35,965 nucleotides of DNA from NCBI RefSeq assembly GCF_029960785.1, contig NZ_JASBQE010000116.1:1-35965 (forward strand), in the 5' to 3' direction. How positions within the stretch are numbered: the first letter of the stretch is position 1; the number at the start of each line of letters is the position of its first letter. Shown here one piece after another: positions 17,467 through 30,781 of the stretch. This DNA comes from Polyangium sp. 15x6 (GTDB taxonomy: Bacteria; Myxococcota_A; Polyangia; Polyangiales; Polyangiaceae). The translations under genes and the position numbers were made by a program. Under the pieces are notes generated by a model, which saw only the letters and a program-made list of their open reading frames with translations, had not been told where the DNA came from and searched no databases.

Positions 17467-20307
17467 ATGACCGCCCGCTCGCTCGTTCGGCTCACCGCGC
17501 TTTTCGCCCTCGCCGCGGCCCTCGGCGCCGCTTGCCACCGCGCGGGTGATCCGGCGCTCGATCGACCGGGAAAAAACACACCCCAAGCTGCGCTGACCGC
17601 AAGCTCCGCAAGTTCGGCATCCCAGGCGCCCGTGGCTTTGCCTGGTTCCCACCACTCGGCGGCCTTCCTGGCGCTCGGCAAGATGGAGACGGCGGAGGCT
17701 TGCGCGTTGCCGACGACGGTCCCGGCCATGAACGCGCGCCCCGGGGCCAAGGCCTTCGAGGTCGTCGAAGCCCATTGCACGGAGGACGCGTTTTGTGACC
17801 GCGTCGATGTCGCGCCGAAGGGGGCGGACGCGTGCTTCGTGAGCGACGACCATATCCGCGATCTGGAGAAAAAGGTCAGCGCGGCGGGTGGAGCCGCGGG
17901 GCGGAGTGATCCCTGGAACGGCGTGAAGAAGCCGAAGTTCCTCGATCGCATCGACGCGCACCTGCACCTCGACGACGCCGAGGAGGCATTGCTCCGGAAA
18001 AACGGGTTCGTGGTGCTCGATCGTCTCGCATACAGCGATTATGCGACCGCGTTTCACGACATCTTCCAGGAGGAGCTGCCGCTCTACGTCGGGCCCGATC
18101 CGATCCTGTTCGCCGCTTTCCGCGCGACCGACAACGTGCTCGGTCAAGCCGAACGAAAGCGGCTCGCGCCGGCGCTGAAGACGATGCTCGGAAAGCTGAA
18201 GAAAGGCCTCGCCGCGCCGAAGGGCGCCTATGACGAGGTGACGCGGAAGGATCTCGATCTCTACCTGGCCGTGGCGATCGAGCTCGTGCGAGAATACGAC
18301 GACAACGAGCCGTCCTCCCTGTTCGGCCAGAAGGACGCCGCGCTCGCGATCGTCGAGGCCATCACGAGAGCGGAGCTCGCGCCCATCTCCATCTTCGGCC
18401 GCGAGCGGATGATGGACTTCTCGCAGTTCACGCCGCGGGGGCATTACGCGGGCGGTGACGTGTATGCCTCGCTCCAGCCCTACTTCCGCGCCATCACGTG
18501 GCTCTCCCGGTTCGAATGGAACCTCGTCTCGCGCGGCTCACGCAGCTCGCACCCGGGCGAGTCGCCGGATCTGCGGGAGACGCCGCGCGAGGCGAGGGAC
18601 GCGCTCGCGCTCGCGGACCTCTTCCGTCGCTCGGGGGCGCTCGGCGAGCTCGCCGCATTCGAGGAGATCTACACGGCCTTCGGCGGGCGACGCGAGGACG
18701 TCGGGATGCCGGAGCTCCTGAAGCTCATGGACAAGCACGGGATCAAGGTGACGGACCCCGAGGCGCCCGAGAAGCTGAAGGTCGCGATCGGTACGGGATA
18801 CCGGCGCACGGCCCGCTTCCATTTCATGCCCCAGGGCGTGACGGATCTGCCCGTGATTTCGACGGTCATCGGCCCGCGCATCGCGCCCGACATCGCGCCG
18901 CTCGAGCGGCTGGTCCACGACGCCGTGCCCGATCGATTCGAGCTCGGCGCGGCCGATGTCGGGTACATGCTCGGCCACGATCGCGCGGCGGCGTATTTGA
19001 AGGAGGACCTCGCGAGATACCCGAGCTTGCAGGGCGCGCTCGACGCGGCGCGCGCCGAGGTCGCGAGCCGGACGAAGCAAAGCAAGGACGTACAAGGGAG
19101 CTTCTTCGGCGCGGTGCTCGCGCTCGCCGCGGAGCCGAAGGGAAGATTGCCCTCGTTCATGCAGCGGGACGCCTACGCGGATCTGCGGCTCTCCTCGGCG
19201 CTCGTGGGGTATGCCGAGCTCCGGCACATCTTCGTTTTGCTGGACGGGCAGGGGTACGATGCCTATGGATGCGCCATCCCGGACGCCTACGTCGAGCCGC
19301 TCGCGCCGTTTTACGCCGCATTGCTCGAGCATACCGAGCGCCTGCGCAAGGTCGCGGGCGGGGGCTTCGACGGGCTCTTGCGCGTGCTCCGCGTGCTCTC
19401 GACGATCACGAAGACGGAGCTCGCGCGCGGCGCGCCCACGGCGGCGCAGGCCACGTGGCTCGGCATGGTGGCCGAGTACATCCCCGAGGGTGGATACGCC
19501 GACAGCGGCGAGCCGCCGAAATGGACCGGCTGGTATTACGACATGTTCGAGGACCGCGAGGACGGCGCGGGCCGGTCGCCGGAGCTCGTCGCCGATTATT
19601 TCACGCTCACGAACGCGGGGAAGGTCGCGTATCTCGGCACGGAATCTCCGCGGCTCGGGGTCTTCGTGGTGGACACGGGCGGCGAGCCGCGTGCGATGGT
19701 CGGCCCCGTCGCGCGAGGCTACGAGCTCACGGGGCCCATCGCCGCGCGTCTCGACGACGAGGCCGCGAGGAAGAGCCCAGGCAAACGCGCGCCGTTCCGG
19801 GAGAGCTTCGCGGCAAAACCGTGGACCGAGCCGCCGCTCGGCCTCGGCGTGAATCTTTTCGAATGCACGCGCGAAGGCAAGCTGGAGGCGCGGCTCGTGC
19901 TCGCCGCGGATCGCCCTGTCGGTCCGGTGACGGTCGCCCTGCTCGACCACCACGCCGATCCCCTGGCGCCGTCGCTCACGCTGAATGTGGACGACGGGCT
20001 CGTGGTCTTCCCGTTCTTCTTTCCCGAGGTCGCGCATGGCGATGCGGATGCGGGGCACGTGTCGGCCATGTTCGGTCCCAGGGGAAAGAGGTATCGATCT
20101 CCGATCGAGGCGCTGTCCGTGCGTGCCGAGGACCTGACCCGCGCGGGGCTGGGGAAAGGCTCGTACGACTACTTCACGAGCCCGAGCGTGCTCTCGATGA
20201 GTGATGGCAGCGACGGATTCCGGCCCGTCGGGACGCTCCGATTCGTCATCGGAGGCGCCTGGGAAGCGCCCCAGCCGCCGGTGATCGAAGAGGTCCGCGA
20301 CGAATGA
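17467..20307 (+). CDS. DUF3160 domain secreted or lipoprotein, 946 aa
   Basis: A large exported protein. The N-terminal signal (LTALFALAAALGAAC) suggests lipidation at Cys23, though the lipobox is weak, followed by a Ser/Ala linker. From about residue 170 it follows the DUF3160 family of large helical proteins: KNGFVVLDR and YATAFHDIFQEELPLYVGPDPILFA are close to the family opening, with YRRTARFHFMPQG and a long helical middle part. The role of DUF3160 proteins is not established. The region around 750-830 (TEPPLGLGVNLFECTREGKLEARLVL) appears to be a separate C-terminal domain. It probably shares a transcript with the roadblock-like gene upstream. Confidence 0.88.
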   Translation: MTARSLVRLTALFALAAALGAACHRAGDPALDRPGKNTPQAALTASSASSASQAPVALPGSHHSAAFLALGKMETAEACALPTTVPAMNARPGAKAFEVVEAHCTEDAFCDRVDVAPKGADACFVSDDHIRDLEKKVSAAGGAAGRSDPWNGVKKPKFLDRIDAHLHLDDAEEALLRKNGFVVLDRLAYSDYATAFHDIFQEELPLYVGPDPILFAAFRATDNVLGQAERKRLAPALKTMLGKLKKGLAAPKGAYDEVTRKDLDLYLAVAIELVREYDDNEPSSLFGQKDAALAIVEAITRAELAPISIFGRERMMDFSQFTPRGHYAGGDVYASLQPYFRAITWLSRFEWNLVSRGSRSSHPGESPDLRETPREARDALALADLFRRSGALGELAAFEEIYTAFGGRREDVGMPELLKLMDKHGIKVTDPEAPEKLKVAIGTGYRRTARFHFMPQGVTDLPVISTVIGPRIAPDIAPLERLVHDAVPDRFELGAADVGYMLGHDRAAAYLKEDLARYPSLQGALDAARAEVASRTKQSKDVQGSFFGAVLALAAEPKGRLPSFMQRDAYADLRLSSALVGYAELRHIFVLLDGQGYDAYGCAIPDAYVEPLAPFYAALLEHTERLRKVAGGGFDGLLRVLRVLSTITKTELARGAPTAAQATWLGMVAEYIPEGGYADSGEPPKWTGWYYDMFEDREDGAGRSPELVADYFTLTNAGKVAYLGTESPRLGVFVVDTGGEPRAMVGPVARGYELTGPIAARLDDEAARKSPGKRAPFRESFAAKPWTEPPLGLGVNLFECTREGKLEARLVLAADRPVGPVTVALLDHHADPLAPSLTLNVDDGLVVFPFFFPEVAHGDADAGHVSAMFGPRGKRYRSPIEALSVRAEDLTRAGLGKGSYDYFTSPSVLSMSDGSDGFRPVGTLRFVIGGAWEAPQPPVIEEVRDE

Positions 20308-20422: not shown

Positions 20423-20674
20423 TCAATCGAGCGGCGTCAACGCGCCACCGCGGGCACGTAGATCGAGCAGGGCGGGGACGGTCTTGCTCGCGAGCTCCGC
20501 GGCTTGCTCCGCGTCTGCGCCGTAGATCCGCTTCGTGCATGGCTCATCGAAGCCGGCGATGTCGACGACGGCGGCGTACATCTCTCCCTGCGGCTCGGGG
20601 GCGCCGATGGTCACCGTGATCGTTCGCGCGGCGCCGCCTTCCGGGGGAATCCATTGCAATTTCTGGGTTTGCAT
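20423..20674 (-). CDS. Small hypothetical protein, 83 aa
   Basis: An 83-residue soluble protein beginning MQTQKLQWIPPEGG. It reads as a small strand-rich domain (ITVTIGAPEPQGEMYAAVVDI) followed by a C-terminal helix (AEQAAELASKTVPALLDLRA). The arrangement of a beta-hairpin opening, a GxPxP turn and a closing helix is like DUF6968-type proteins, but I cannot confirm the family. The neighbouring fragment at 20741-20917 on the same strand ends 66 bp upstream. Confidence 0.65.
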   Translation of the reverse strand: MQTQKLQWIPPEGGAARTITVTIGAPEPQGEMYAAVVDIAGFDEPCTKRIYGADAEQAAELASKTVPALLDLRARGGALTPLD

Positions 20675-20917: not shown

Positions 20918-20931
20918 GTAGACGACGCCGC

Positions 20932-21099
20932 GGGCGGGGTCTTGTGCGGGAAGGGCGGGGTCTTGTGCGCCGAGGGCGGGGTCTTGTGCGCCGAGGGCGG
21001 GGTCTTGTGCGGGAAGGGCGGGGTCTTGTGCGCCGAGGGCGGGGTCTTGTGCGCCGAGGGCGGGGTCTTGTGCGCCGAGGGCGGGGTCTTGTGCGCCGT
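20932..21099. repeat. Tandem array A, 8 units of 21 bp
   Basis: Eight exactly abutting 21-bp units begin with GGGCGGGGTCTTGTGCG and end CCGA, GGAA or CCGT. Units 1 and 4 carry the GGGAA ending. There are no spacers between units, so it is a minisatellite and not a CRISPR. The period is a multiple of three, so several frames stay open and produce artificial repeat peptides. Confidence 0.92.
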
Positions 21100-21183
21100 G
21101 GGCACAGCCGCTTGCACGAAGGACACAGCCGCTCGCGCGAAGGACACAGCCGCTCGCACGAAGGACACAGCCGCTCGCACGAA
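21100..21183. repeat. Tandem array B, 4 units of 21 bp
   Basis: Four 21-bp units follow array A without a gap. The consensus begins GGACACAGCCGCTCGCACG and ends AA; the first unit starts GGGC like array A. The sequence differs from A but the period is identical. The array ends in a partial unit (GGACAGC). Confidence 0.9.
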
Positions 21184-21221
21184 GGACAGCAACGTGGCTC
21201 TGGACCGATGCCCCGAATGGG

Positions 21222-21256: not shown

Positions 21257-21664
21257 ATGCAGCGCGTGAAACCGACCCAGCTCCCGCTCACGTCCCTCGT
21301 CATCCGCGCCGGGCAAGCCGCGGTGCTCACGGCGGCGCTCTTGCCGGGGTGCAGCGGTGATACGACGGGCGGAGGGGGCGACATCCCGCCTCAGGCTCCG
21401 TCGGGTCCGACGACGAGCTCGACGGGGCCGGGCGGGGGAGGGGGCGCTGGGGGTGAGGGCGGCGTCATTCCGCCCCAGCCGGGGCCGGGCGGGGGAGGGG
21501 GCGACGGCGGCGCGGGCGGGGCCATTCCGCCCCAACCCAATCCGGCCGGCGGCGTGGGCGGGGGAGGTGGGGACGGCGGCGCGGGCGGGGCCATCCCGCC
21601 TCAACCCAATCCGGCCGGCGGCGCGGGCGGCGCCATTTCGCCACAGCCCCCGCAGGCCAAATAA
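21257..21664 (+). CDS. Small Gly/Pro-rich repeat lipoprotein, 135 aa, candidate oxygenase substrate
   Basis: The N-terminus (VKPTQLPLTSLVIRAGQ, then AVLTAALLPGC) is a lipoprotein signal with lipobox LPGC. The mature about 105 residues are almost entirely Gly, Ala, Pro and Gln, with five copies of xI(P/S)PQ: DIPPQAP, VIPPQPGP, AIPPQPNP twice and AISPQPP. Gly-rich linkers separate them (GGGGGDGGAGGA occurs twice), and the DNA shows the matching direct repeat at about 21510-21627. There is no Cys beyond the lipidated one and no aromatic residue. Start: the ATG at 21257 has no properly spaced ribosome site; the GTG at 21266 has GAGAGG nine bases upstream and would give 132 residues. The JmjC-type gene starts 10 bp after the stop, so the two are almost certainly one operon. 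Its composition is that of a flexible surface or modified-peptide substrate. Confidence 0.75.
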   Translation: MQRVKPTQLPLTSLVIRAGQAAVLTAALLPGCSGDTTGGGGDIPPQAPSGPTTSSTGPGGGGGAGGEGGVIPPQPGPGGGGGDGGAGGAIPPQPNPAGGVGGGGGDGGAGGAIPPQPNPAGGAGGAISPQPPQAK

Positions 21665-21674
21665 GCCATCCCGG

Positions 21675-22742
21675 ATGGGCGGCATCTCTCGGTTCAGGAC
21701 GCGCGGCGTCGATTCTCCGCACGTAGCCGCGAGGTCTCGACGCGCCGCGACCAGGCTCTCTCCGGACGCGCTCGATTGGATCGTGCTGAACCTCGCGCGC
21801 GGCGTCATGCCCCGTGAGATTGTGGCGACGCTCTCCGGGGCAGGCCTTCCCGTGGCGGCGGTCAGGAACGCGCTCGACGAGATCGCGCATTCGCAGATCA
21901 CGCCGGCCTATGTGCGCGCGATCGACGAGCGCGCCCGCGCTCGCGAGATAGGTCGGCTCCCCGAGCTCGTCCGGCGAGATGCAGGCGCGGTCGTGGAGGT
22001 CTCGTGGTGCCCGCCCGCCGACGTGTTCCATCGCCAGCACTGGCTCGGCAATGCTCCTCTCGTCGTGCGAGGGTACGTGGAGCAATGGCCGCGGCCCCCG
22101 CGTTTTCGCTTCGAGGACCTCCGGCGACGGTTCGCCGACGTGGAGATCGAGGTCGCTCGCGGTCGAACCAAGCACGCGCGCCCGGATCTCGAATTCACGG
22201 AGCTACGGGCGAAGATGTCGTTCGGGGACTACCTCGACATCGTCACGAACGCGGTCGACGACGACGTCTACCTCGTCGCGCGCAATCGGGTCTTCGAGGA
22301 CACCGCGATCGGGGAATTGATCGAGGAATTCGAGCTGCCCCCCGATCTTTTTCCGCCGCCGCGCCGTGGCTCCGTCTCCTTTTGGCTCGGGCCGAAGGGC
22401 ACGCACACGAAGTTGCACCACGACGGGACCAACAACTTCTTTTGCCAGATCCTCGGCAAGAAGCGCGTCGCCTTGGTGCCGCCCAGCGTGGCGATGGTCG
22501 CGGACGCGGCCACGGGCTTTTACGCGTCGCATTCGAGCGACGAGGTTCGTCGCGTCCACCCGGAGCTCGTCCATGAAGTGGAGCTCGAGCCGGGCGATGC
22601 GCTTTTCATCCCGGTCGGCTGGTGGCATGAGGTATGGAGTTTGTCTCCGAGTCTCTCGCTCGCCGTCGTGGGCTTTCGATGGCCGGGCAGCTACGACTAC
22701 CGGCCGGGGCGCCCCTTGCGTCAGCGCGAATCGCTCGGTTGA
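21675..22742 (+). CDS. JmjC/cupin_8-type Fe(II)/2-oxoglutarate oxygenase, 355 aa
   Basis: Members of this family hydroxylate protein side chains (Asn, Asp, His, Lys, Arg) or small molecules using Fe(II), O2 and 2-oxoglutarate. The metal triad is complete: His248 and Asp250 in TKLHHDGTNNFF, and His318 in FIPVGWWHEVWS. Between them, CQILGKKRVALVPPS is the usual strand after the HxD motif and Lys262 or 263 may bind the cosubstrate. The N-terminal about 100 residues form a helical module (LSPDALDWIVLNLARGVMP, then EIVATLSGAGLP) found ahead of such oxygenases. Residues 107-240 begin the cupin part with the PLVVRGYVEQWP entry motif. No signal, so it is cytosolic and would act before export. It starts 10 bp after the repeat lipoprotein gene, which is the obvious candidate substrate. 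Confidence 0.87.
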   Translation: MGGISRFRTRGVDSPHVAARSRRAATRLSPDALDWIVLNLARGVMPREIVATLSGAGLPVAAVRNALDEIAHSQITPAYVRAIDERARAREIGRLPELVRRDAGAVVEVSWCPPADVFHRQHWLGNAPLVVRGYVEQWPRPPRFRFEDLRRRFADVEIEVARGRTKHARPDLEFTELRAKMSFGDYLDIVTNAVDDDVYLVARNRVFEDTAIGELIEEFELPPDLFPPPRRGSVSFWLGPKGTHTKLHHDGTNNFFCQILGKKRVALVPPSVAMVADAATGFYASHSSDEVRRVHPELVHEVELEPGDALFIPVGWWHEVWSLSPSLSLAVVGFRWPGSYDYRPGRPLRQRESLG

Positions 22743-23085
22743 GAGGGGCGAGTGCCCGGGCTCGAAGCCTCACGCCGTTCCCGGTAGCCCCGCGGGTCCG
22801 CGCTGCGCTGCCGGCGATCGCGGCGCTCTACGGTGATGGTGAGGCCAAAGCCCTCACCCCATGGACAGCCGAAAGTTATGTAGAACGTGCGGGGGGTGTT
22901 ACCATCCATTCAAATCGCGCGCGCGATCGAGCCAAAGGGTTCGACGCTCCGCGGCCTGCGAGCGTGTTCTCCGGACTTTACGTCGCGAGCGCGGTCACGG
23001 TTGCGTTGACGTGAATACCGCATCGCACAACGTCCTGTGGCGGCAGGCACCCGAGCACGGCAGCCAAAAATCAGGAGAACAACCG
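22743..23085. other. Intergenic region with a gene remnant
   Basis: These 343 bp separate the oxygenase and lectin genes. A frameshifted paralogous fragment lies at 22772-22850. The rest shows no coding signal. A TTGACG at about 23006-23011 has no good -10 partner. Confidence 0.55.
22772..22850 (+). pseudogene. Frameshifted remnant of the roadblock-like gene tail
   Basis: The DNA from 22772 follows 17297 onward in the gene at 16922-17425: ACGCCGTTCCCGGT is identical, then GTCCGCGCTGCGCTGCCGG against CTCCGCGCCGCGCTGCCGG. In protein this is TPFPVAPRVRAALPAIAAL against TPFPVAAKLRAALPVIESL. One inserted base then restores alignment of ACGGTGATG (TVM). No upstream part of the gene is present. It is therefore a dead fragment of a paralogue. 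Confidence 0.6.
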
Positions 23086-23496
23086 ATGAACCGTGGTTCA
23101 CTTTCCGTTGTCGGCATCGTTGTACTGATGTCCATTGCGTCGATCGCTGAGGCGCGGGATAGGCTGCAGCCTAATGAGCACCTCGCCAGAGGCGAATCCC
23201 TGACTTCCAGCAATGGTATTCACTCCTTCGTGTGCCAGGATGACGGGAACCTCGTCCTGTACATCCGGGGTGGAAGCCAAGCTCGATGGGCCTCGGGCAC
23301 GCACGGCCGAGCCATCACAGGCTGCTACATGCAAGGGGACGGCAATCTGGTACTTTATGCGCACAGTGGACAAGCCGTTTGGGCCACGGGGACGCATGGT
23401 CACCCGGGCGCCTACCTCATTGTTCAAGATGACGGGAATGTCGTCATCTATTCGCTGGAAGGGCGCGCGCTCTGGTCGACGAACACCTGGCTATGA
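23086..23496 (+). CDS. Secreted B-lectin (GNA-type, mannose-binding) domain protein
   Basis: A signal peptide (VVGIVVLMSIASIAEA) precedes a single beta-prism II domain of about 115 residues. All three QxDxNxVxY sugar-site motifs are visible: QDDGNLVLY, QGDGNLVLY and QDDGNVVIY, and each third ends in a W-(A/S)-(S/T) strand (RWASGTHG, VWATGTHG, LWSTNTW). Proteins of this fold bind mannose-containing glycans; bacterial relatives include lectin-like bacteriocins, but those are usually tandem domains. AGGAGAAC precedes the ATG at 23086. The coding sequence is visibly less GC-biased than neighbours, which hints at transfer. It lies 142 bp upstream of the restriction operon. Confidence 0.88.
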   Translation: MNRGSLSVVGIVVLMSIASIAEARDRLQPNEHLARGESLTSSNGIHSFVCQDDGNLVLYIRGGSQARWASGTHGRAITGCYMQGDGNLVLYAHSGQAVWATGTHGHPGAYLIVQDDGNVVIYSLEGRALWSTNTWL

Positions 23497-23638
23497 TTCA
23501 CGAGGAGCCGAGAGCGTGCAGGTCGACGTGCCGCTCGTCTTCTGGCGCGATCGGGCCCTCGCCGTTCCTTTTCGGTTCCATCCGCTCACGCCGTGATGTT
23601 CCATAGGCTTGCCTCTCTCCAGGCCTGGACACCTCGTG

Positions 23639-26600
23639 ATGCCTACAGCCTCCCCGAACTTCGCCTACCTCGCGCACCACGATCCGCTCCTGGCGATCCT
23701 CGGCACCCAGGCCGAGCGGTACTTCGCCGACGATCCCAACACCTGCCTCATCAAGCTTCGGCAGTTCGGGGAGCTGCTCGCGAAGCACGCGGCCGCGCGC
23801 CTCGGGCTCTACACGTCGCCGGCCGAGGACACTCAGGCGATCCTCATCAACCGGCTTCACGACCGCGGCGCGCTCGATGTCCGCACGAAGCAGCTCTTCC
23901 ACGATCTGCGCATCATCGGGAACAAGGCCGCGCACGAGGTCCAGGGCTCCCATCACGAGGCCCTGCATCAGCTCAAGATGGCTCGTGAGCTGGGCGTCTG
24001 GTTTCAGCGCGCGTTTGGGAACCATCGCAAGTTCGATCCCGGCCCGTTCGTTCCGCCTCCCGGGCCGAAGGACGACGCGGCGCTCGCGAAGGAGCTCGAG
24101 GCGCTGCGCGAGGAGCTCGCGAAGAGCAAGGTCGACGTCGAGGCCATGCGCGCGGCGGCCGAGGAGGAGGCACGAAAGCGGCTCACGGCGGAGCAGATCG
24201 CGCAGAAGGAGGCCGAGGATCGGGCCCTCTGGGAGGCGCTCGCCACCGAGGAGGCCGCGCGGCGCGCGAAGGACGTGGAGGCCGTCGCGAAGCAGAAGGC
24301 CGCGATCGAGGCCGAGCTGGCTGCGCTTCAGGCCAGGGCCGCCGCCGCCCCGGCCGAGACGACGAAGCTCCTCACGCGCGCGGCCGAGGCCTCGCGCGAT
24401 GTCTACCTCGACGAGGCCGCGACGCGTCGGCTCATCGACGAGCAGCTCCGCGCGGTCGGGTGGGAGGTCGACTCGGAGCGGCTGTCCTACAAGCGCGGCG
24501 CGCGGCCCGAGAAAGGGAAGAATCGCGCCATCGCCGAGTGGCCCACGGAGAATGGCCGGGCCGACTACGTGCTGTTCGTCGGCACCGCGGCCCTCGGCGT
24601 CGTCGAGGCGAAGCGGTTCCACAAGGACGTCGCCGGCAAGCTCGATCAGTCGGCGCGGTACAGCGTCGGCCTCCTAGCGAAGGACGGCGTGGAGTTCGCC
24701 GGGGGGCCGTGGGGGAAACTGAAGCACCGGGTGCCGTTTCTCTTCGCCACGAACGGCCGGCCCTACCTCGAACAGATCAAGGAAAAGAGCGGAATCTGGT
24801 TCCGCGACGCCCGCCGCGACCAGAATCCCAAGAAGCCGCTCCAGGGCTGGTATTCGCCCGAGGGCCTCGAGGCACTGACGAAGCAGGACGTCGACGCGGC
24901 CCACGACAAGCTCCGCAGCGAGCCGACCAGCTACCTCGGCCTGCGCGATTATCAGATCCGTGCGATCCAGGCCGTCGAGACCGCGATCGCGGCGGGAACC
25001 CCGAGCTGCCTCGTCGCCATGGCCACGGGAACCGGCAAGACGAAGACCGCGATCGGGCTCGTGTATCGGCTCATCAAGGCGAAGCGCTTCCGCCGCGTGC
25101 TTTTCCTGGTCGATCGAAGCGCGCTCGGCGAGCAGACGGGCGATGCGTTCAAGGAGACGCGGCTCGAGAACCTGCAGACGTTCCATCAGATCTTCGACAT
25201 GAAGGAGCTCGGGGACATCAAGCCCGAGGGCGACACGAAGCTTCACATCGCCACGGTGCAAAGCCTCGTGAAGCGGGTTCTCAACGCCACGGATCCCGCG
25301 GACGTCCCGCCGGTCGATCAATACGACTGCCTCGTCGTCGATGAATGCCATCGCGGCTACACGCTCGATCGGGAGCTCTCCGAGACGGAGCTCGGCTTTC
25401 GTGACTTCGAGGACTACATCTCGAAATACCGGCGCGTCCTCGACCACTTCGACGCGGTGAAGATCGGCCTCACGGCCACGCCCGCGCTGCATACGACGGA
25501 GATCTTCGGCGATCCCACGTTCCGTTACTCGTACCGCGAGGCCGTGATCGACGGGATGCTCGTCGACCACGAGCCGCCGATCCGCATCGTGACGGAGCTC
25601 GCGCAGAAGGGGATCCAGTGGGCCAAGGGCGAGGACGTCAAGGTCTACGATCCCGGCAAGGCGCAGCTCGACCTCATCCACCTCGCGGACGAGGTGAAGA
25701 TCGAAATCGAGGGCTTCAACCGCGCCGTCATCACGGAGAACTTCAACCGCGCCGTCTGCGAGGAGCTGGCGAACCACATCGACCCGATGGGCGACGCGAA
25801 GACGCTGGTCTTCGCGGTGAACGACGACCACGCGCAGCTCGTCGAGCGCCTGCTTCGTGAGGCCTTTACCGCGAAGTACGGCGCGATCGACAACGACGCG
25901 GTCAAGAAGATCACGGGCAGCAGCGACAAGCCGCTCCAGCGGATCCGCGAGTACAAGAACGAGCGGCTGCCGAACGTGGCGATCACGGTCGATCTGCTCA
26001 CGACGGGGATCGACGTGCCGCCGATCTCGAACCTCGTCTTTCTCCGGCGCGTGAAGAGTCGCATTCTTTACGAGCAGATGCTCGGCCGCGCGACGCGGCT
26101 ATGCCCGGAGATCGGGAAAACGGTCTTCCGCATCTTCGACGCCGTGGAGCTCTACGACGCGCTGGAGCAGTACACGGAGATGAAGCCCGTCGCCCCTTCG
26201 CCGACGGTCACCTTCGCGCAGCTCGTCGCGGAGCTCGGGCACGCGGATCCCGAGGCGCGAAGGCTCGCGCTCGATCAGCTCGTCGCCAAGCTCCGGCGCC
26301 GGGCGCCGGCCTTGAAGGGGGAAGACCTCTCCCGCTTCGAGGGCATCGCGTCGATGCCTCCGTCGTCCCTCGCCGCAATGCTTCGCAGGCAGAGCCCCGA
26401 GGAGGCTGCGGCGTGGTTCGGGCAGCATGGGTATCTCGTGCCGCTGCTCGATGGGCGGTTCGGCGAGGCGCGGCCGCTTCTCGTCTCCGACCATGCCGAT
26501 CAGGTCGTGGCGGTCGAGGTCGGGTATGGCAAGGGGACGCGCCCCGAGGACTATCTCGACAGTTTTTCCGCGTTCCTGCGGGAGAACATGAACAAGATAC

Positions 26601-27049
26601 CGGCGCTCGTGGTCGTCACGCAGCGCCCGCGGGACCTCACGCGCGCTGCGCTACGCGAACTCCTCCTCGCGCTCGACGCGAAGGGGTACACGGAAGCGGC
26701 CTTGCAAACGGCGTGGAGGCAGGCCTCGAACGCTGACTTTGCAGCGTCGATCATCGGCTACATCCGCAAGGCCGCGCTCGGAAATGCGCTCGTTCCGTAC
26801 GACGAGCGCGTCGCACGGGCGACGGCGAAGATCCTCGCGCGGCCGGGTTGGACCTCGATCCAGCGGCAATGGCTCCAGCGCATCGGGAAGCAGCTCGAGC
26901 GCGAGAGGGTCGTGGATCGCGACACGATCGACGAGAGCGAGGCGTTCAAGTCGAACGGCGGGTTCAAGCACCTCGACAAGGTGTTCGGTGGGAAGCTCGA
27001 TGCGATCCTCGGGGATCTGCGCGAGGAGGTCTGGAAGGACGCGGGGTGA
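23639..27049 (+). CDS. hsdR: Type I restriction enzyme R subunit (EcoEI type)
   Basis: The motor and nuclease subunit of a type I restriction complex; it cuts unmodified DNA after ATP-driven translocation. From the ATG at 23639 it has 1136 residues; the longer frame starts only at a TTG. Order: DUF4145-like helical domain (about 5-125, with TCLIKLRQFGE and GNKAAHE), Ala/Glu-rich coiled coil (about 145-245), HsdR_N nuclease with Asp309 in GRADYVLF and Glu323-x-Lys325 in VVEAKRF, SF2 helicase with Walker A MATGTGKTKT (461-470), DECH (568-571), LTATP (611-615) and LGRATRLCP, then an EcoEI-type C-terminal domain. All motifs are intact. It starts the operon with the EcsC-like, hsdM and hsdS genes. 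Confidence 0.95.
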   Translation: MPTASPNFAYLAHHDPLLAILGTQAERYFADDPNTCLIKLRQFGELLAKHAAARLGLYTSPAEDTQAILINRLHDRGALDVRTKQLFHDLRIIGNKAAHEVQGSHHEALHQLKMARELGVWFQRAFGNHRKFDPGPFVPPPGPKDDAALAKELEALREELAKSKVDVEAMRAAAEEEARKRLTAEQIAQKEAEDRALWEALATEEAARRAKDVEAVAKQKAAIEAELAALQARAAAAPAETTKLLTRAAEASRDVYLDEAATRRLIDEQLRAVGWEVDSERLSYKRGARPEKGKNRAIAEWPTENGRADYVLFVGTAALGVVEAKRFHKDVAGKLDQSARYSVGLLAKDGVEFAGGPWGKLKHRVPFLFATNGRPYLEQIKEKSGIWFRDARRDQNPKKPLQGWYSPEGLEALTKQDVDAAHDKLRSEPTSYLGLRDYQIRAIQAVETAIAAGTPSCLVAMATGTGKTKTAIGLVYRLIKAKRFRRVLFLVDRSALGEQTGDAFKETRLENLQTFHQIFDMKELGDIKPEGDTKLHIATVQSLVKRVLNATDPADVPPVDQYDCLVVDECHRGYTLDRELSETELGFRDFEDYISKYRRVLDHFDAVKIGLTATPALHTTEIFGDPTFRYSYREAVIDGMLVDHEPPIRIVTELAQKGIQWAKGEDVKVYDPGKAQLDLIHLADEVKIEIEGFNRAVITENFNRAVCEELANHIDPMGDAKTLVFAVNDDHAQLVERLLREAFTAKYGAIDNDAVKKITGSSDKPLQRIREYKNERLPNVAITVDLLTTGIDVPPISNLVFLRRVKSRILYEQMLGRATRLCPEIGKTVFRIFDAVELYDALEQYTEMKPVAPSPTVTFAQLVAELGHADPEARRLALDQLVAKLRRRAPALKGEDLSRFEGIASMPPSSLAAMLRRQSPEEAAAWFGQHGYLVPLLDGRFGEARPLLVSDHADQVVAVEVGYGKGTRPEDYLDSFSAFLRENMNKIPALVVVTQRPRDLTRAALRELLLALDAKGYTEAALQTAWRQASNADFAASIIGYIRKAALGNALVPYDERVARATAKILARPGWTSIQRQWLQRIGKQLERERVVDRDTIDESEAFKSNGGFKHLDKVFGGKLDAILGDLREEVWKDAG

Positions 27050-27064
27050 TGAGGGGAGGCGACA

Positions 27065-27721
27065 ATGGCTGACGACGACAAGTCAAATGACAGTCTGATT
27101 CGGAAAGCGTTCGATTGGGCAATGTCCGTCGATCGTGACGAAGAGTTGTTCTTCGTGAACGAGCTCGCGCGGAAATACCCCACAAGAAACAGGCGCGAGC
27201 TGGCGGACAAGATCATCGGCCGCGCGCGCTGGTGGGGCGTTGGGAGTGGAGTCGTTACGGGACTGCCGGCGAACCCTTGGGTCGCGGCTCCGGCAGCGAT
27301 TGGCGACGTAGGCGCGATGCTGCGTGCTGAGGTCGTCATGGCCGCGAGGATCGCGCTCCTCTTCGATCCACGGTACCTCGACGACGGGGAGCCGCCGTAC
27401 GAGCTGCTCGTACCCATCATGGGAAGTCGAGCTGCGTCCGAGTTCATGCGCGAGCTCGCCATTCGCGGTGGCATGGGCACGAGCCGCCAAGCCATCAAGA
27501 AAATCCTCACGAAGGAGACGCTGAAGCAATTCAAACGCATCATGCTCAAATACTTCGGCCTGAAGGTGACCCAGCGAGGCATCATCACGAAGACCCTGCC
27601 GATCGTCGGCGGTGTCATCGGAGGCACCTGGAATTACGCCGAGGTCAAGATCGTGGGCGACCGCGTCTACAGCTACTTCGAGGGCAAAGCCCTCGGCGAC
27701 GAAGGCAGCCCGACAGCCTAA
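27065..27721 (+). CDS. EcsC-family-like membrane-associated protein inside the restriction operon
   Basis: A 218-residue protein. Typical EcsC features are a Gly-rich hydrophobic stretch followed by an acidic residue (VVTGLPANPWVAAPAAIGDVGAML, about 63-86), RAEVVMAARIALLFDPRYL, and the closing TLPIVGGVIGGTWNYAEV (about 177-194). The hydrophobic parts are too Gly/Ala-rich and short for certain TM helices, so it is probably membrane-associated. The biochemical role of the family is unsettled. GGGGAGG lies five bases before the ATG and the gap to hsdR is only 15 bp, so it is translated with the operon. It is not a known restriction subunit; a role in defence, such as a membrane-acting effector, is inference from position. 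Family assignment is by pattern. Confidence 0.7.
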   Translation: MADDDKSNDSLIRKAFDWAMSVDRDEELFFVNELARKYPTRNRRELADKIIGRARWWGVGSGVVTGLPANPWVAAPAAIGDVGAMLRAEVVMAARIALLFDPRYLDDGEPPYELLVPIMGSRAASEFMRELAIRGGMGTSRQAIKKILTKETLKQFKRIMLKYFGLKVTQRGIITKTLPIVGGVIGGTWNYAEVKIVGDRVYSYFEGKALGDEGSPTA

Positions 27722-27824
27722 GAGCAGCGCTGCACACAAGGGCGTGAGACCGAGACGGGCCGTTCGCGTCCCCCTGGACCTCCGCCCCGGACTGGCGTAG
27801 TTCTTCCGCCCCAACTACCCCGCC

Positions 27825-29246
27825 ATGTCCACCACCGACATCGTCCAGAAGCTATGGAACCTCTGCCACGTCCTCCGAGACGATGGCATCACCTACCACC
27901 AGTACGTCACCGAGCTGACCTACCTTCTCTTTCTCAAGATGATGAAGGAGACGGACCAGGAGAAGCACCTGCCGAAGGGGTATCGGTGGGGTGATCTCGA
28001 GGCGAAGGACGGGGTCGAGCAGCTCAACTTTTATCGGGCGCTCCTCCTGCACCTCGGCACGGAGGGCTCGGGGCGGGTGCAGGCGATCTTCGCGAACGCG
28101 ACGACGTCGCTCAAGGTGCCGCGGAACCTGAAGAAGCTCGTGGATGCGATCGACGAGCTCGACTGGTATTCGGCGCGGACCGAGGGGCTCGGGGATCTTT
28201 ACGAGGGGTTGCTCGAAAAGAACGCGGCGGAGAAGAAGTCGGGGGCCGGGCAATACTTCACGCCGCGGCCGCTGATCGATTCGATGGTGCACCTCGTGCA
28301 GCCGCAGCCGGGGGAAAAGGTGCAGGACCCGGCGGCGGGGACGGCGGGCTTTTTGATCGCGGCCGACCGGTACATCAAGGGCAAGACGGACCAGCTCTTC
28401 ACGCTCGACGCGAAGGAGCAGGCGTTCCAGAAGAAGAAGGCGTTTTACGGCGTGGAGCTCGTGCCGGACGCGCATCGGCTCGCGCTGATGAACCTGATGC
28501 TCCACGACATCGAGGGCGAGCTTTCGCTCGGGGATACGCTCTCGTCGCTGGGGACGCAGCTCGAAAAGGCGGACGTGATCCTGACGAACCCGCCGTTCGG
28601 CACGAAGAAGGGCGGGGGGTTGCCGACGCGGGACGATTTTACGTATCCGACGTCGAACAAGCAGCTTGCGTTCTTGCAGCACATCTATCGGGGATTGAAG
28701 CCGGGCGGTCGGGCGGCGGTGGTGCTGCCGGACAACGTGCTTTTCGAAGAGAATACGGGGACGGAGATCCGGCGGGACCTGATGGAGAAGTGCGATCTGC
28801 ACACGATCCTGCGGCTGCCGACGGGGATCTTTTATGCGCAGGGGGTGAAGACGAACGTTCTGTTCTTCACGCGCGGGGCGACGGACAAGGGCCACACGAA
28901 GGCGGTGTGGGTGTTCGACATGCGGGCGAACATGCCTTCGTTCGGGAAGCGGACGCCGCTCATGCGGGAGCATTTTGGGGAGTTCGAGGCGGCGTTCGGG
29001 AAGGATCCGCTCGGGAAGAGCAAGCGGAAGGATCAGGGGGAAGCGGGGCGGTTCCGGAAGTTTTCGCGGGAGGAGATTCGGGGGCGGGGGGACAACCTCG
29101 ATATTGCGTGGCTCAAGGATGAGAGTGTTCGGGGGGCGGATGATTTGCCGGAGCCGGAGGAGATCGCGGACGAGATTTTGGAGAAGTTGCGGATCGCGGT
29201 GACGGAGATTGAGGGGCTGCGGGCGGAGCTGGAGGGCGGAACGTGA
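27825..29246 (+). CDS. hsdM: Type I modification methyltransferase, M subunit
   Basis: The N6-adenine methyltransferase subunit, which with HsdS protects the host site and is part of the restriction complex. 473 residues. The HsdM_N helical domain is at about 1-125. GQYFTPRPLID (142-152) leads into motif I DPAAGTAGFL (168-177), then GVELVPDAHRLA, and catalytic motif IV NPPF (255-258). A C-terminal coil (IAVTEIEGLRAELEGG) probably contacts HsdS. It starts at the ATG at 27825 without an obvious ribosome site after a 103-bp gap from the EcsC-like gene. The stop overlaps the hsdS start (GTGA). All catalytic parts are present. Confidence 0.95.
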   Translation: MSTTDIVQKLWNLCHVLRDDGITYHQYVTELTYLLFLKMMKETDQEKHLPKGYRWGDLEAKDGVEQLNFYRALLLHLGTEGSGRVQAIFANATTSLKVPRNLKKLVDAIDELDWYSARTEGLGDLYEGLLEKNAAEKKSGAGQYFTPRPLIDSMVHLVQPQPGEKVQDPAAGTAGFLIAADRYIKGKTDQLFTLDAKEQAFQKKKAFYGVELVPDAHRLALMNLMLHDIEGELSLGDTLSSLGTQLEKADVILTNPPFGTKKGGGLPTRDDFTYPTSNKQLAFLQHIYRGLKPGGRAAVVLPDNVLFEENTGTEIRRDLMEKCDLHTILRLPTGIFYAQGVKTNVLFFTRGATDKGHTKAVWVFDMRANMPSFGKRTPLMREHFGEFEAAFGKDPLGKSKRKDQGEAGRFRKFSREEIRGRGDNLDIAWLKDESVRGADDLPEPEEIADEILEKLRIAVTEIEGLRAELEGGT

Positions 29247-30781
29247 CCTGGCTGAATCTGCGGTTGAGCGACGCGTGCCAATTGGTTACGGACGGTACGC
29301 ACCACTCTCCACCCAACGGGCAATCCGGTCCGTTTCTTTACGTCACTGCCAAGAATATTCGGCCATGGGGATTGGACATTTCCGATATCACCTATGTGTC
29401 GGCTGATGTTCACCGCGAGATCTATGCCCGGTGCCCCGTTGAGCAAGGAGACGTGCTGTACATAAAGGATGGGGTTACGACAGGGCTTGCCGCAGTGAAT
29501 CACTTGGAGCGGCCTTTTTCCCTGCTCTCCAGCGTCGCCTTGCTAAAGCCGCGGCGGGATCTTCTCGACCCCCACTTCCTGAAGCATTGGCTCAACAGCC
29601 CCGAGACGGTTGCCTTGATGACCGGCAACATGAACGGGTCGGCGATTCGGCGGTTGGTACTTAAACAAATCCGGGAAGCAGAGATTCTTCTCCCTCCGTT
29701 GGTGCACCAACGCCTGATTGTCTCCAAAGTTGAATCCCTGACCGCCCGGAGCCGTCGCGCCAAGGAAGCCCTCGATGCCGTCCCCGCGCTCCTCGAACAG
29801 TTCCGCCAGTCCGTGCTCGCCGCCGCGTTCCGCGGGGATCTGACCGCCGCGTGGCGCGAGAAGAACCCCGACGTGGAGCCGGCCGAGGTGCTCCTCCAGC
29901 GCATCCGCACCGAGCGGCGGCGGCGGTGGGAGGAGGCGGAGCTCGCGAAGATGCGGGCGAAGGGGAAGGTGCCGGGGGATGATCGGTGGAAAGAGAAGTA
30001 CGAGGAGCCGGAGCCGGTCGATGCGAGTGAGCTGCCGGAGTTGCCGGAGGGGTGGGCGTGGGTGCGCTTGCCCGAATGTGGGAGCCTGGAACGCGGCCGC
30101 TCTCGACATCGTCCGCGGAACGATCCGGCTCTGTTTGGCGGTTCCTATCCGTTCATTCAAACAGGTGATGTGGCACAATCGGGTGGTACGATTAGCAAAT
30201 ACTCCCAGACGTATAATGAGACCGGTCTCACGCAAAGCAAATTGTTTCGTGCGGGGACTGTGTGTATAACGATTGCGGCGAACATTGCTAATTCGGGCGT
30301 GCTAAATATCGATGCGTGCTTTCCTGATAGCGTTGTTGGTGTGACCGTCGATCGGTCAATCGTGTCGCCGGAGTATCTGGAATTCTACGTTAGGCACGTT
30401 AGGGCAGACATCTCTGCGTTTGCCCCTGGGACCGCGCAAAAGAATATAAACCTTGAGATCCTTGGGGATGTGGCGATACCCATCCCACCGGCCTCGGAAC
30501 GTGTGGCAATCGAACGGAGGCTGCAAGAATTGTTCAGCTTGGCCGAGCGGCATCTGCTTACCGCTAAGCAGAGCTTGCTGGAATTGAACTCGTTGGATCG
30601 AGCCATCCTCTCCAAAGCCTTCCGCGGCGAACTCGTCCCCCAGGATCCCACCGACGAACCCGCCTCCGTCCTCCTCGAACGCCTCCGCACCGAGGCCGCA
30701 GAGCCGACCGGCAAGAAGCCCAAGGGCGGCAAGCGGCGCGGCGCCGAGGGGCGGAACGGCGGGGCGGCGAGCGTCGAGTAG
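29243..30781 (+). CDS. hsdS: Type I specificity subunit
   Basis: Determines the bipartite DNA target of the restriction and methyltransferase complex. 512 residues with the usual two halves: TRD1 (about 1-150), a helical spacer (about 155-200, AVPALLEQFRQSVLAAAFRG), TRD2 (about 270-430) and a second spacer (LLELNSLDRAILSKAFRGEL) that repeats the first. The pairs AAFRGDL/KAFRGEL and VLLQRIRTE/VLLERLRTE show the internal duplication. Both TRDs (DNA about 29260-29740 and 30080-30590) are visibly AT-richer than the spacers, as expected for TRDs exchanged between genomes. It begins with GTG overlapping the hsdM stop. The C-terminal tail is Lys/Gly-rich. Confidence 0.94.
   Translation: MTWLNLRLSDACQLVTDGTHHSPPNGQSGPFLYVTAKNIRPWGLDISDITYVSADVHREIYARCPVEQGDVLYIKDGVTTGLAAVNHLERPFSLLSSVALLKPRRDLLDPHFLKHWLNSPETVALMTGNMNGSAIRRLVLKQIREAEILLPPLVHQRLIVSKVESLTARSRRAKEALDAVPALLEQFRQSVLAAAFRGDLTAAWREKNPDVEPAEVLLQRIRTERRRRWEEAELAKMRAKGKVPGDDRWKEKYEEPEPVDASELPELPEGWAWVRLPECGSLERGRSRHRPRNDPALFGGSYPFIQTGDVAQSGGTISKYSQTYNETGLTQSKLFRAGTVCITIAANIANSGVLNIDACFPDSVVGVTVDRSIVSPEYLEFYVRHVRADISAFAPGTAQKNINLEILGDVAIPIPPASERVAIERRLQELFSLAERHLLTAKQSLLELNSLDRAILSKAFRGELVPQDPTDEPASVLLERLRTEAAEPTGKKPKGGKRRGAEGRNGGAASVE

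Follow-up and report, generated by a model that had tools for sequence, protein, structure and literature searches.

Several described systems come close to the gene pair reported here. In the available portions of PMC12707348 and PMC12257519, the JmjC/cupin enzymes BipG and PbsQ are shown to hydroxylate ornithine, a residue of the ribosomal precursor, in biphenomycin-type RiPPs. There, the JmjC/cupin-fold enzymes BipG, BpmG and PbsQ provide a tailoring step in a many-enzyme cluster with an MNIO, a B12 radical SAM enzyme, an arginase and a TldD protease. The DAG-RiPPs DybA and NedA, as described in the accessible part of PMC12636315, have lipobox precursors that are modified by an MNIO (DUF692) and then lipidated via the lipoprotein pathway, and NedA has repeated core motifs. 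According to the same part of that source, the MNIO subfamily recognises a C-terminal motif, and leader-independent pathways were deemed the likelier candidates for lipidation. Bufferins are modified peptides with a signal peptide as well; they are MNIO-modified and carry conserved Cys, and ~16% of Buf2 bufferins have lipoprotein signals (available part of PMC12452194).

How does the locus studied here compare with these systems? The window, by which we mean the whole 35,965-nt stretch of Polyangium sp. 15x6 DNA that was analysed (contig NZ_JASBQE010000116.1; genome, 13.4 Mb), encodes a repeat lipoprotein and, directly behind it, a JmjC/Cupin_8 oxygenase. Unlike the biphenomycin enzymes, this oxygenase is the only conserved partner of its lipoprotein. 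No MNIO, B12 radical SAM enzyme or arginase was found among the sixteen window ORFs scanned against Pfam, which gave DUF3160, DUF6968, a weak B-lectin, Cupin_8/JmjC and type I restriction, the others having no family. The lipoprotein resembles the DAG-RiPP precursors in its lipobox Cys after the signal peptide (assigned by a sequence rule only) and NedA in its repeats. In the described DAG-RiPP cases, however, an MNIO acts with a C-terminal motif (PMC12636315, in part), whereas the Polyangium pair combines an adjoining Cupin_8/JmjC enzyme with a leader in the signal peptide n-region. In contrast to the bufferins, the window core is without Cys. Judged from sequence, the pair appears to work like these RiPP systems, but its enzyme family, the position of its leader and its core place it outside all of them.

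Our searches of the open-licence literature turned up no paper that links a JmjC enzyme to a repeat lipoprotein or to an LTPxPxxPALVR-type leader. The initial annotation of this DNA knew of no described system with this architecture, a statement that is to be restricted to the combination, since a JmjC enzyme acting on a RiPP (BipG; PMC12707348) and MNIO RiPP-lipoprotein hybrids (PMC12636315) have each been described in the available parts of these sources. In the comparisons presented here, the pair recurs across the myxobacterial phylum, which suggests that it stands for a so far undescribed family of surface peptides that are modified by an oxygenase and anchored by a lipid.

Results and Discussion

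The Repeat Lipoprotein and the Oxygenase

The two genes and their parts are located as follows.

21257..21664, + strand: repeat lipoprotein gene, 135 aa, proposed substrate/precursor (ORF and translation)
21272..21307, + strand: leader motif PTQLPLTSLVIR, residues 6-17, in the signal peptide n-region (leader alignments, profile search)
21350..21352, + strand: lipobox cysteine codon C32, predicted lipidation/cleavage site (sequence ...ALLPGC)
21383..21394, + strand: core motif 1, IPPQ
21467..21478, + strand: core motif 2, IPPQ(PGP)
21524..21535, + strand: core motif 3, IPPQ(PNP)
21593..21604, + strand: core motif 4, IPPQ(PNP)
21635..21646, + strand: core motif 5, ISPQ(PP)
21675..22742, + strand: JmjC/Cupin_8 2-oxoglutarate oxygenase, 355 aa, proposed maturase (Pfam Cupin_8, 4e-31; JMJD5/FIH relatives)
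21756..21983, + strand: N-terminal all-helical domain, residues ~28-103, subfamily mark and proposed substrate-binding part (subfamily alignment, model)
22416..22424, + strand: iron-site HxD, H248 and D250 (alignment)
22626..22628, + strand: second iron-site histidine, H318 (alignment)

These positions bear out what the initial annotation had read from the letters, namely a 135-aa lipoprotein with five xI(P/S)PQ motifs (IPPQ four times and ISPQ once), a gap of 10 bp to the oxygenase (stop ending at 21664, ATG at 21675) and an intact HxD...H triad (H248, D250, H318). The signal peptide of the lipoprotein ends in ...LLPG, directly ahead of C32, and the 104 residues from C32 onward include 41 Gly, 20 Pro, 11 Ala and 6 Gln. 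The lipoprotein DNA itself is made up of a 57/69-nt tandem repeat. The protein matched no Pfam or NCBIfam family at E<=0.01 and gave no match to TIGR03901 (MYXO-CTERM); likewise, no Pfam/NCBIfam family above cut-off was found for the proline-repeat, HPT and APNAT partners tested. Two abutting 21-bp tandem arrays lie just upstream of the lipoprotein gene (20926-21188). A 21-bp array is also present ahead of the pair in L032, but L033, L034 and the available part of L005 showed no such array.

The oxygenase passed the Pfam cut-offs for both Cupin_8 (109.3 bits; cut-off 27.4) and JmjC_2 (40.5 bits; cut-off 22), and, by sequence profile, its nearest solved structures are JMJD5, followed by JMJD7 and FIH. 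It shares sequence family and catalytic residues with the JMJD5/FIH protein hydroxylases and differs from them in its neighbour, as we know of no leader-bearing repeat substrate encoded alongside these enzymes. K263 is presumably the 2-oxoglutarate lysine, a role that we take over from its relatives. The catalytic H, D and K are kept in 82/82 aligned enzymes and the second H in 81/82; the exception is L137, in which a stop lies inside the frame and that part is missing. By family match and iron-site residues, the gene product is a JmjC/Cupin_8 oxygenase, and 2-oxoglutarate-dependent turnover is predicted.

The N-terminal part of the enzyme sets it apart. A model of residues 25-108 (pLDDT 79.3) gave a helical domain of ~75 residues. 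Profile matches to JMJD5/FIH structures start at position 90 or later and one JMJD7 chain matches from position 40, so that this domain is without a full match among solved structures by sequence. Fold comparison, which bears on whether the domain might be a winged-helix RRE of the kind that recognises leaders, yielded low similarities, chiefly to helix-turn-helix proteins that bind DNA (best Z 5.9 among 27 chains aligned), and a Foldseek search of the domain gave no match at E<=0.001. With the G100 enzyme as the query, 15 records of plasmid relatives were found, none matching 80% of the query. All of these matches begin at query residue 75 or later, and the domain is therefore seemingly absent there. 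The full-length oxygenase model reached a pLDDT of 46.5 from a shallow alignment (the window protein and three near-identical ones), and no result rests on it.

Elsewhere in the window, a 946-aa lipoprotein-like DUF3160 protein is encoded at 17467-20307, and a small DUF6968 protein (20423-20674, minus strand) lies between that gene and the pair. Behind the pair, 22861-23496 encodes a secreted-looking B-lectin-like protein, which stays below the Pfam cut-off for B_lectin and reaches 89 bits against a putidacin L1-like lectin bacteriocin model (cut-off 275). Type I restriction-modification genes follow at 23609-30781 (hsdR, 23609-27049; hsdM, 27825-29246; hsdS, 29243-30781).

Conservation of the Gene Pair

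The five-motif lipoprotein precedes the oxygenase in 5/5 Polyangium genomes having the oxygenase, and in a sixth, G089, leader/lipoprotein and oxygenase are both absent. Within the host family, some oxygenase match was found in 36/108 genomes, 19 of them strong (E < 1e-30) and the rest weak Cupin_8 relatives. A profile search of Polyangiia for the oxygenase subfamily, defined by JmjC plus the helical N-terminal domain, yielded at least 70 hits in 62/317 genomes at a limit of 218 bits, which was set after seeing a score gap from 219.9 to 160.4 bits. Because the best first-look candidates alone were scored per genome (six in this search, 25 in the leader search below), the genome counts are lower bounds.

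All 70 class loci were fetched. Nine lie at contig ends (<400 nt upstream) and 61 are evaluable, near-identical loci being kept among the 61. A small exported protein is encoded upstream of the oxygenase in 58 of these 61; 57 were assigned by the signal-peptide rule or by hand reading, and the last, L084, is cut by a contig end with lipobox and repeats still readable. The remaining loci are L047, which has a peptide array, and L048 and L121, which have no convincing partner. The lipoprotein of L103 is 282 nt away from its enzyme, and that of L125 stands 506 nt from the aligned part because the enzyme frame is broken. Outside the class, a search of the phylum (377 genomes) gave 18 further loci, 16 of them at >=200 bits. 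Of these 16, 15 could be evaluated, and a partner is encoded at every one of the 15 (14 by assignment, L141 by eye). No partner was found at the two weakest non-class loci, L146 and L147 (164 bits).

Is the pair part of something larger? Among ORFs of >=130 aa in the fetched flanks of 66 loci, compared after 20 near-duplicate loci had been dropped, no other neighbour was widely conserved. The largest shared groups comprised 5 and 4 loci, at scattered positions, and a larger conserved cluster around the pair was rejected on these counts.

For comparison, we took as controls the 20 highest-scoring generic Cupin_8 hits below the subfamily limit, one of which (L158) borders a contig end. Of the 19 others, 18 lack the N-terminal domain; among these 18, no partner with leader or repeats was seen, and the motif occurs at most once in any upstream frame. 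The nineteenth, L149, scores 46 bits for the N-terminal domain and is accompanied by a lipoprotein with the leader LTPTPVGPALVK, which marks it as a divergent subfamily member. This lipoprotein has an Asp/Ala-rich core without the motif and ends 149 nt before the aligned part of the enzyme. In L149, which is on the minus strand, the oxygenase stretch ahead of the JmjC part is shortened. These results indicate that a leader-bearing partner tracks the N-terminal domain and not Cupin_8 proteins generally. The domain is an imperfect predictor of a partner, being present in L048, L121 and the distant L146 despite no convincing partner; it is absent in L147. Further members like L149 may be hidden among lower-scoring Cupin_8 hits beyond the 20 controls.

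A Leader within the Signal Peptide

In alignments, the partners share the consensus LTPxPxxPALVR in the signal peptide n-region, followed by a hydrophobic stretch and the lipobox. PTQLPLTSLVIR is the window counterpart of this consensus (leader-profile E 6.2e-4). The hydrophobic stretch, which is conserved in any signal peptide, counts against the leader argument. When the 317 genomes were searched with a 31-position leader profile, at least 44 hits were obtained at E<=1e-3, in 41 genomes. With the best 25 candidates scored per genome, hits fell in 41/62 enzyme-positive genomes vs 0/255 others (Fisher p 3e-36, relatedness ignored). Among the enzyme-positive genomes outside the profile training set, 18/39 had a hit, some of these genomes being close relatives of training ones with near-identical leaders.

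Of the 44 leader hits, 41 share the strand of an enzyme and precede it by no more than ~1 kb, one of them (L179) with the enzyme cut by a contig end. Two others are at contig ends (L180, L181). The last is a stand-alone lipoprotein (L182, 1987-2328) with leader and PMPPP repeats and no adjoining enzyme; its genome has enzymes elsewhere, and it is plausible that this substrate is acted on in trans. The profile missed 21 of the 62 enzyme-positive genomes, and it did not report the Polyangiia leaders of the PTCGPCCHG clade (see below), whose likeness was judged by eye from an alignment. Taken by comparison, the arrangement is that by which a RiPP is recognised, a conserved leader ahead of a variable core, beside a putative modifying enzyme.

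Could the neighbourhood be accidental, or could repeats of high GC content pass for proline-rich ORFs? The DNA of myxobacteria is rich in GC and often contains spurious Pro/Arg/Gly frames. In addition, a mechanical signal-peptide rule was passed close upstream of 2/18 domain-less controls, L156 and L161, the former being preceded by a signal-peptide protein that has neither leader nor repeats, the latter by a fragment of a large enzyme-like ORF. On the other hand, the pair is also found, and the pattern persists, in the lower-GC genomes L136 and L138, no domain-less control has leader or repeats, and the leader search was empty in all 255 enzyme-negative genomes. An explanation by artefact or chance is extremely improbable, and we rejected it on these three grounds.

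A Recurring Core Motif between Variable Linkers

Beyond the leader, the partner linkers differ wholly, being Gly-rich in Polyangium, acidic in G099-G103 and Thr-rich or Asp/Ala-rich elsewhere. What recurs in most partners is the motif phi-x-P-[M/Q]-P-x-P. In 58 proline-group partners, xxP[MQ]xxP occurred 375 times vs 61.6 in shuffles, a count that keeps near-identical loci, and 53/58 partners were at or above the 95% shuffle level, with L139 at zero. The motif is absent from the partners of L135, L137, L139 and L149. In the five Polyangium orthologues, PQ is kept in 25/25 motifs.

Pro at positions 0 and +4 and M/Q between them are part of the pattern counted; outside it, Pro is strongly preferred at -1 (292/369) and +2 (317/369). 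The M/Q position holds Met in 295 cases and Gln in 74, and Asn at +3 is rare (17/369). Pro, Asn or Gln had originally been proposed as the target of the enzyme. In the repeats, Pro and the Met/Gln position recur, while Asn, as in PNP, is rare. The leading candidates for the modified residue are Pro or the residue at the Met/Gln position.

Enzyme Clades and Core Types

Does the enzyme follow the core? In a maximum-likelihood tree of 82 enzymes, core labels cluster, with 13 changes vs a shuffled mean of 21.3 and 0/200 shuffles as low; the labels were assigned by hand from the upstream ORFs, ten rows being unknown and L139 being put in the proline group without the exact motif. The tree and the alignment of 82 omit L115, L120, L124, L125 and L129 (short or broken) and L147, and include L146. 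Six enzymes beside PTCGPCCHG-type cores group in one clade (100/99) despite coming from hosts of two families in different classes, and the enzymes of four HPTxxxCxH cores and one APNAT core form another (100/100) in a single host family. Furthermore, six genomes with two readable loci each have two different cores (L108/L112, L095/L126, L107/L116, L140/L141, L117/L128 and L123/L127).

The PTCG(P/A)CCHG motif is seen in anchored or secreted-looking proteins of L126, L127, L128, L140, L144 and L145, with two copies in L144 and L145; so many Cys and His residues suggest that it binds metal or that these residues are themselves modified. The partners in L127 and L128 end in the MYXO-CTERM surface anchor known from other proteins (PMC11980579, in part), with 27.9 and 24.1 bits against TIGR03901 (cut-off 20), and that of L128 also passes the lipobox rule. 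Unlike them, the window protein uses a lipobox, and 2/9 partners scanned against NCBIfam match the anchor. The L140, L144 and L145 partners are larger secreted-looking proteins, those of L144 and L145 with a weak PDZ resemblance below the Pfam cut-off. A lipid anchor is thus common and not universal.

A further core type is found in G067 (L047, 3330-4511), where six tandem short ORFs of ~50 residues precede the enzyme. Their peptides read DDVNVKxxYxxCWxxAP...VPPL, with no evident signal peptide and no leader. No member of this peptide family was found elsewhere in 317 genomes, all six copies being in one array. The VPPL(P) of these peptides recalls IPPQ/IPPM.

The oxygenase might instead target another protein, ribosomal or surface, the repeat lipoprotein being a co-expressed partner, anchor or sensor. 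YcfD, a known bacterial JmjC enzyme, is reported to act on the ribosomal protein uL16. However, loss of the leader goes with loss of the enzyme, the clades of the enzyme follow the type of core, and the partner is variable in most respects except for leader and motif, which is the pattern of a precursor and argues against a mere partner. We consider another target improbable and prefer the lipoprotein as the substrate. The proposal that the two genes form an enzyme-substrate pair is strongly supported by comparison, as indicated by the neighbours found here vs those of Cupin_8 controls, by the co-presence and co-absence of leader and enzyme, and by the agreement of enzyme clades with core type. 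The test that had been set for it, namely whether oxygenase homologues mostly occur without such a neighbour, also came out in favour of the pair (partner in 58/61 class loci and in 15/15 outside).

Proposed Mechanism

By computation, the genes are paired, the partners share a leader and a recurring motif, the catalytic residues are conserved, and enzyme clade goes with core type. How might these regularities fit together? The sequences probably describe a minimal RiPP-like cassette, in which a leader-recognised lipoprotein precursor is oxidised in the cytosol, exported, lipidated and displayed on the surface. The signal peptide n-region would double as a leader (LTPxPxxPALVR-like) that is recognised by the JmjC enzyme, perhaps through its extra N-terminal helical domain, and that brings this enzyme to its substrate in the cytosol. 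With Fe(II) and 2-oxoglutarate, the oxygenase would then oxidise, most simply hydroxylate, side chains in each phi-x-P-[M/Q]-P-x-P repeat. Export of the modified precursor by Sec and lipidation at the lipobox Cys would follow, thereby removing the leader, and the end product would be a multi-site-modified surface lipopeptide. We infer in this way that the enzyme modifies the core and that it does so by hydroxylation, and the residue hit, the order of events, the surface location and the biological role are proposed on the same footing.

Could the reaction go beyond simple hydroxylation, to a cross-link, a desaturation or an oxidative rearrangement, as in RiPP-pathway oxygenases? The Cys/His cores beside two enzyme clades (PTCGPCCHG and HPTxxxCxH) suggest chemistry beyond Pro, and the reaction outcome is not fixed by active-site residues alone. 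On the other hand, several structure entries for JMJD5, the nearest relative with a solved structure, carry the label arginyl-hydroxylase, and FIH is an asparaginyl hydroxylase. BipG, a JmjC enzyme that acts on a RiPP, hydroxylates ornithine as well (PMC12707348, in part). Such a different reaction is rather unlikely in our judgement, and hydroxylation of the repeats is the preferred reading.

Biological Significance

The pair would extend the RiPP-like systems by a class that has a JmjC oxygenase as its defining enzyme and carries its leader inside the signal peptide of a lipoprotein. To our knowledge, many bacterial JmjC members are without a known substrate, and these pairs are directly testable JmjC enzyme-substrate sets. 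The enzyme clades with different core specificities would also be a ready set for learning what governs target choice. A wider reading, possible though doubtful at present, is that of phylum-wide repeat lipopeptides, modified by the oxygenase and displayed on the surface, with JmjC as the founding maturase. A single leader-guided enzyme family would have diversified to serve polyproline P-[M/Q]-P repeats, the PTCGPCCHG and HPTxxxCxH cores and an array of peptides that are not lipoproteins. The hosts belong to a phylum of social predators, in which surface lipoproteins take part in recognition and exchange. If Pro is the residue hit, a JmjC prolyl hydroxylase would give these bacteria a hydroxyproline-rich surface coat, a bacterial counterpart of plant extensins or animal collagen.
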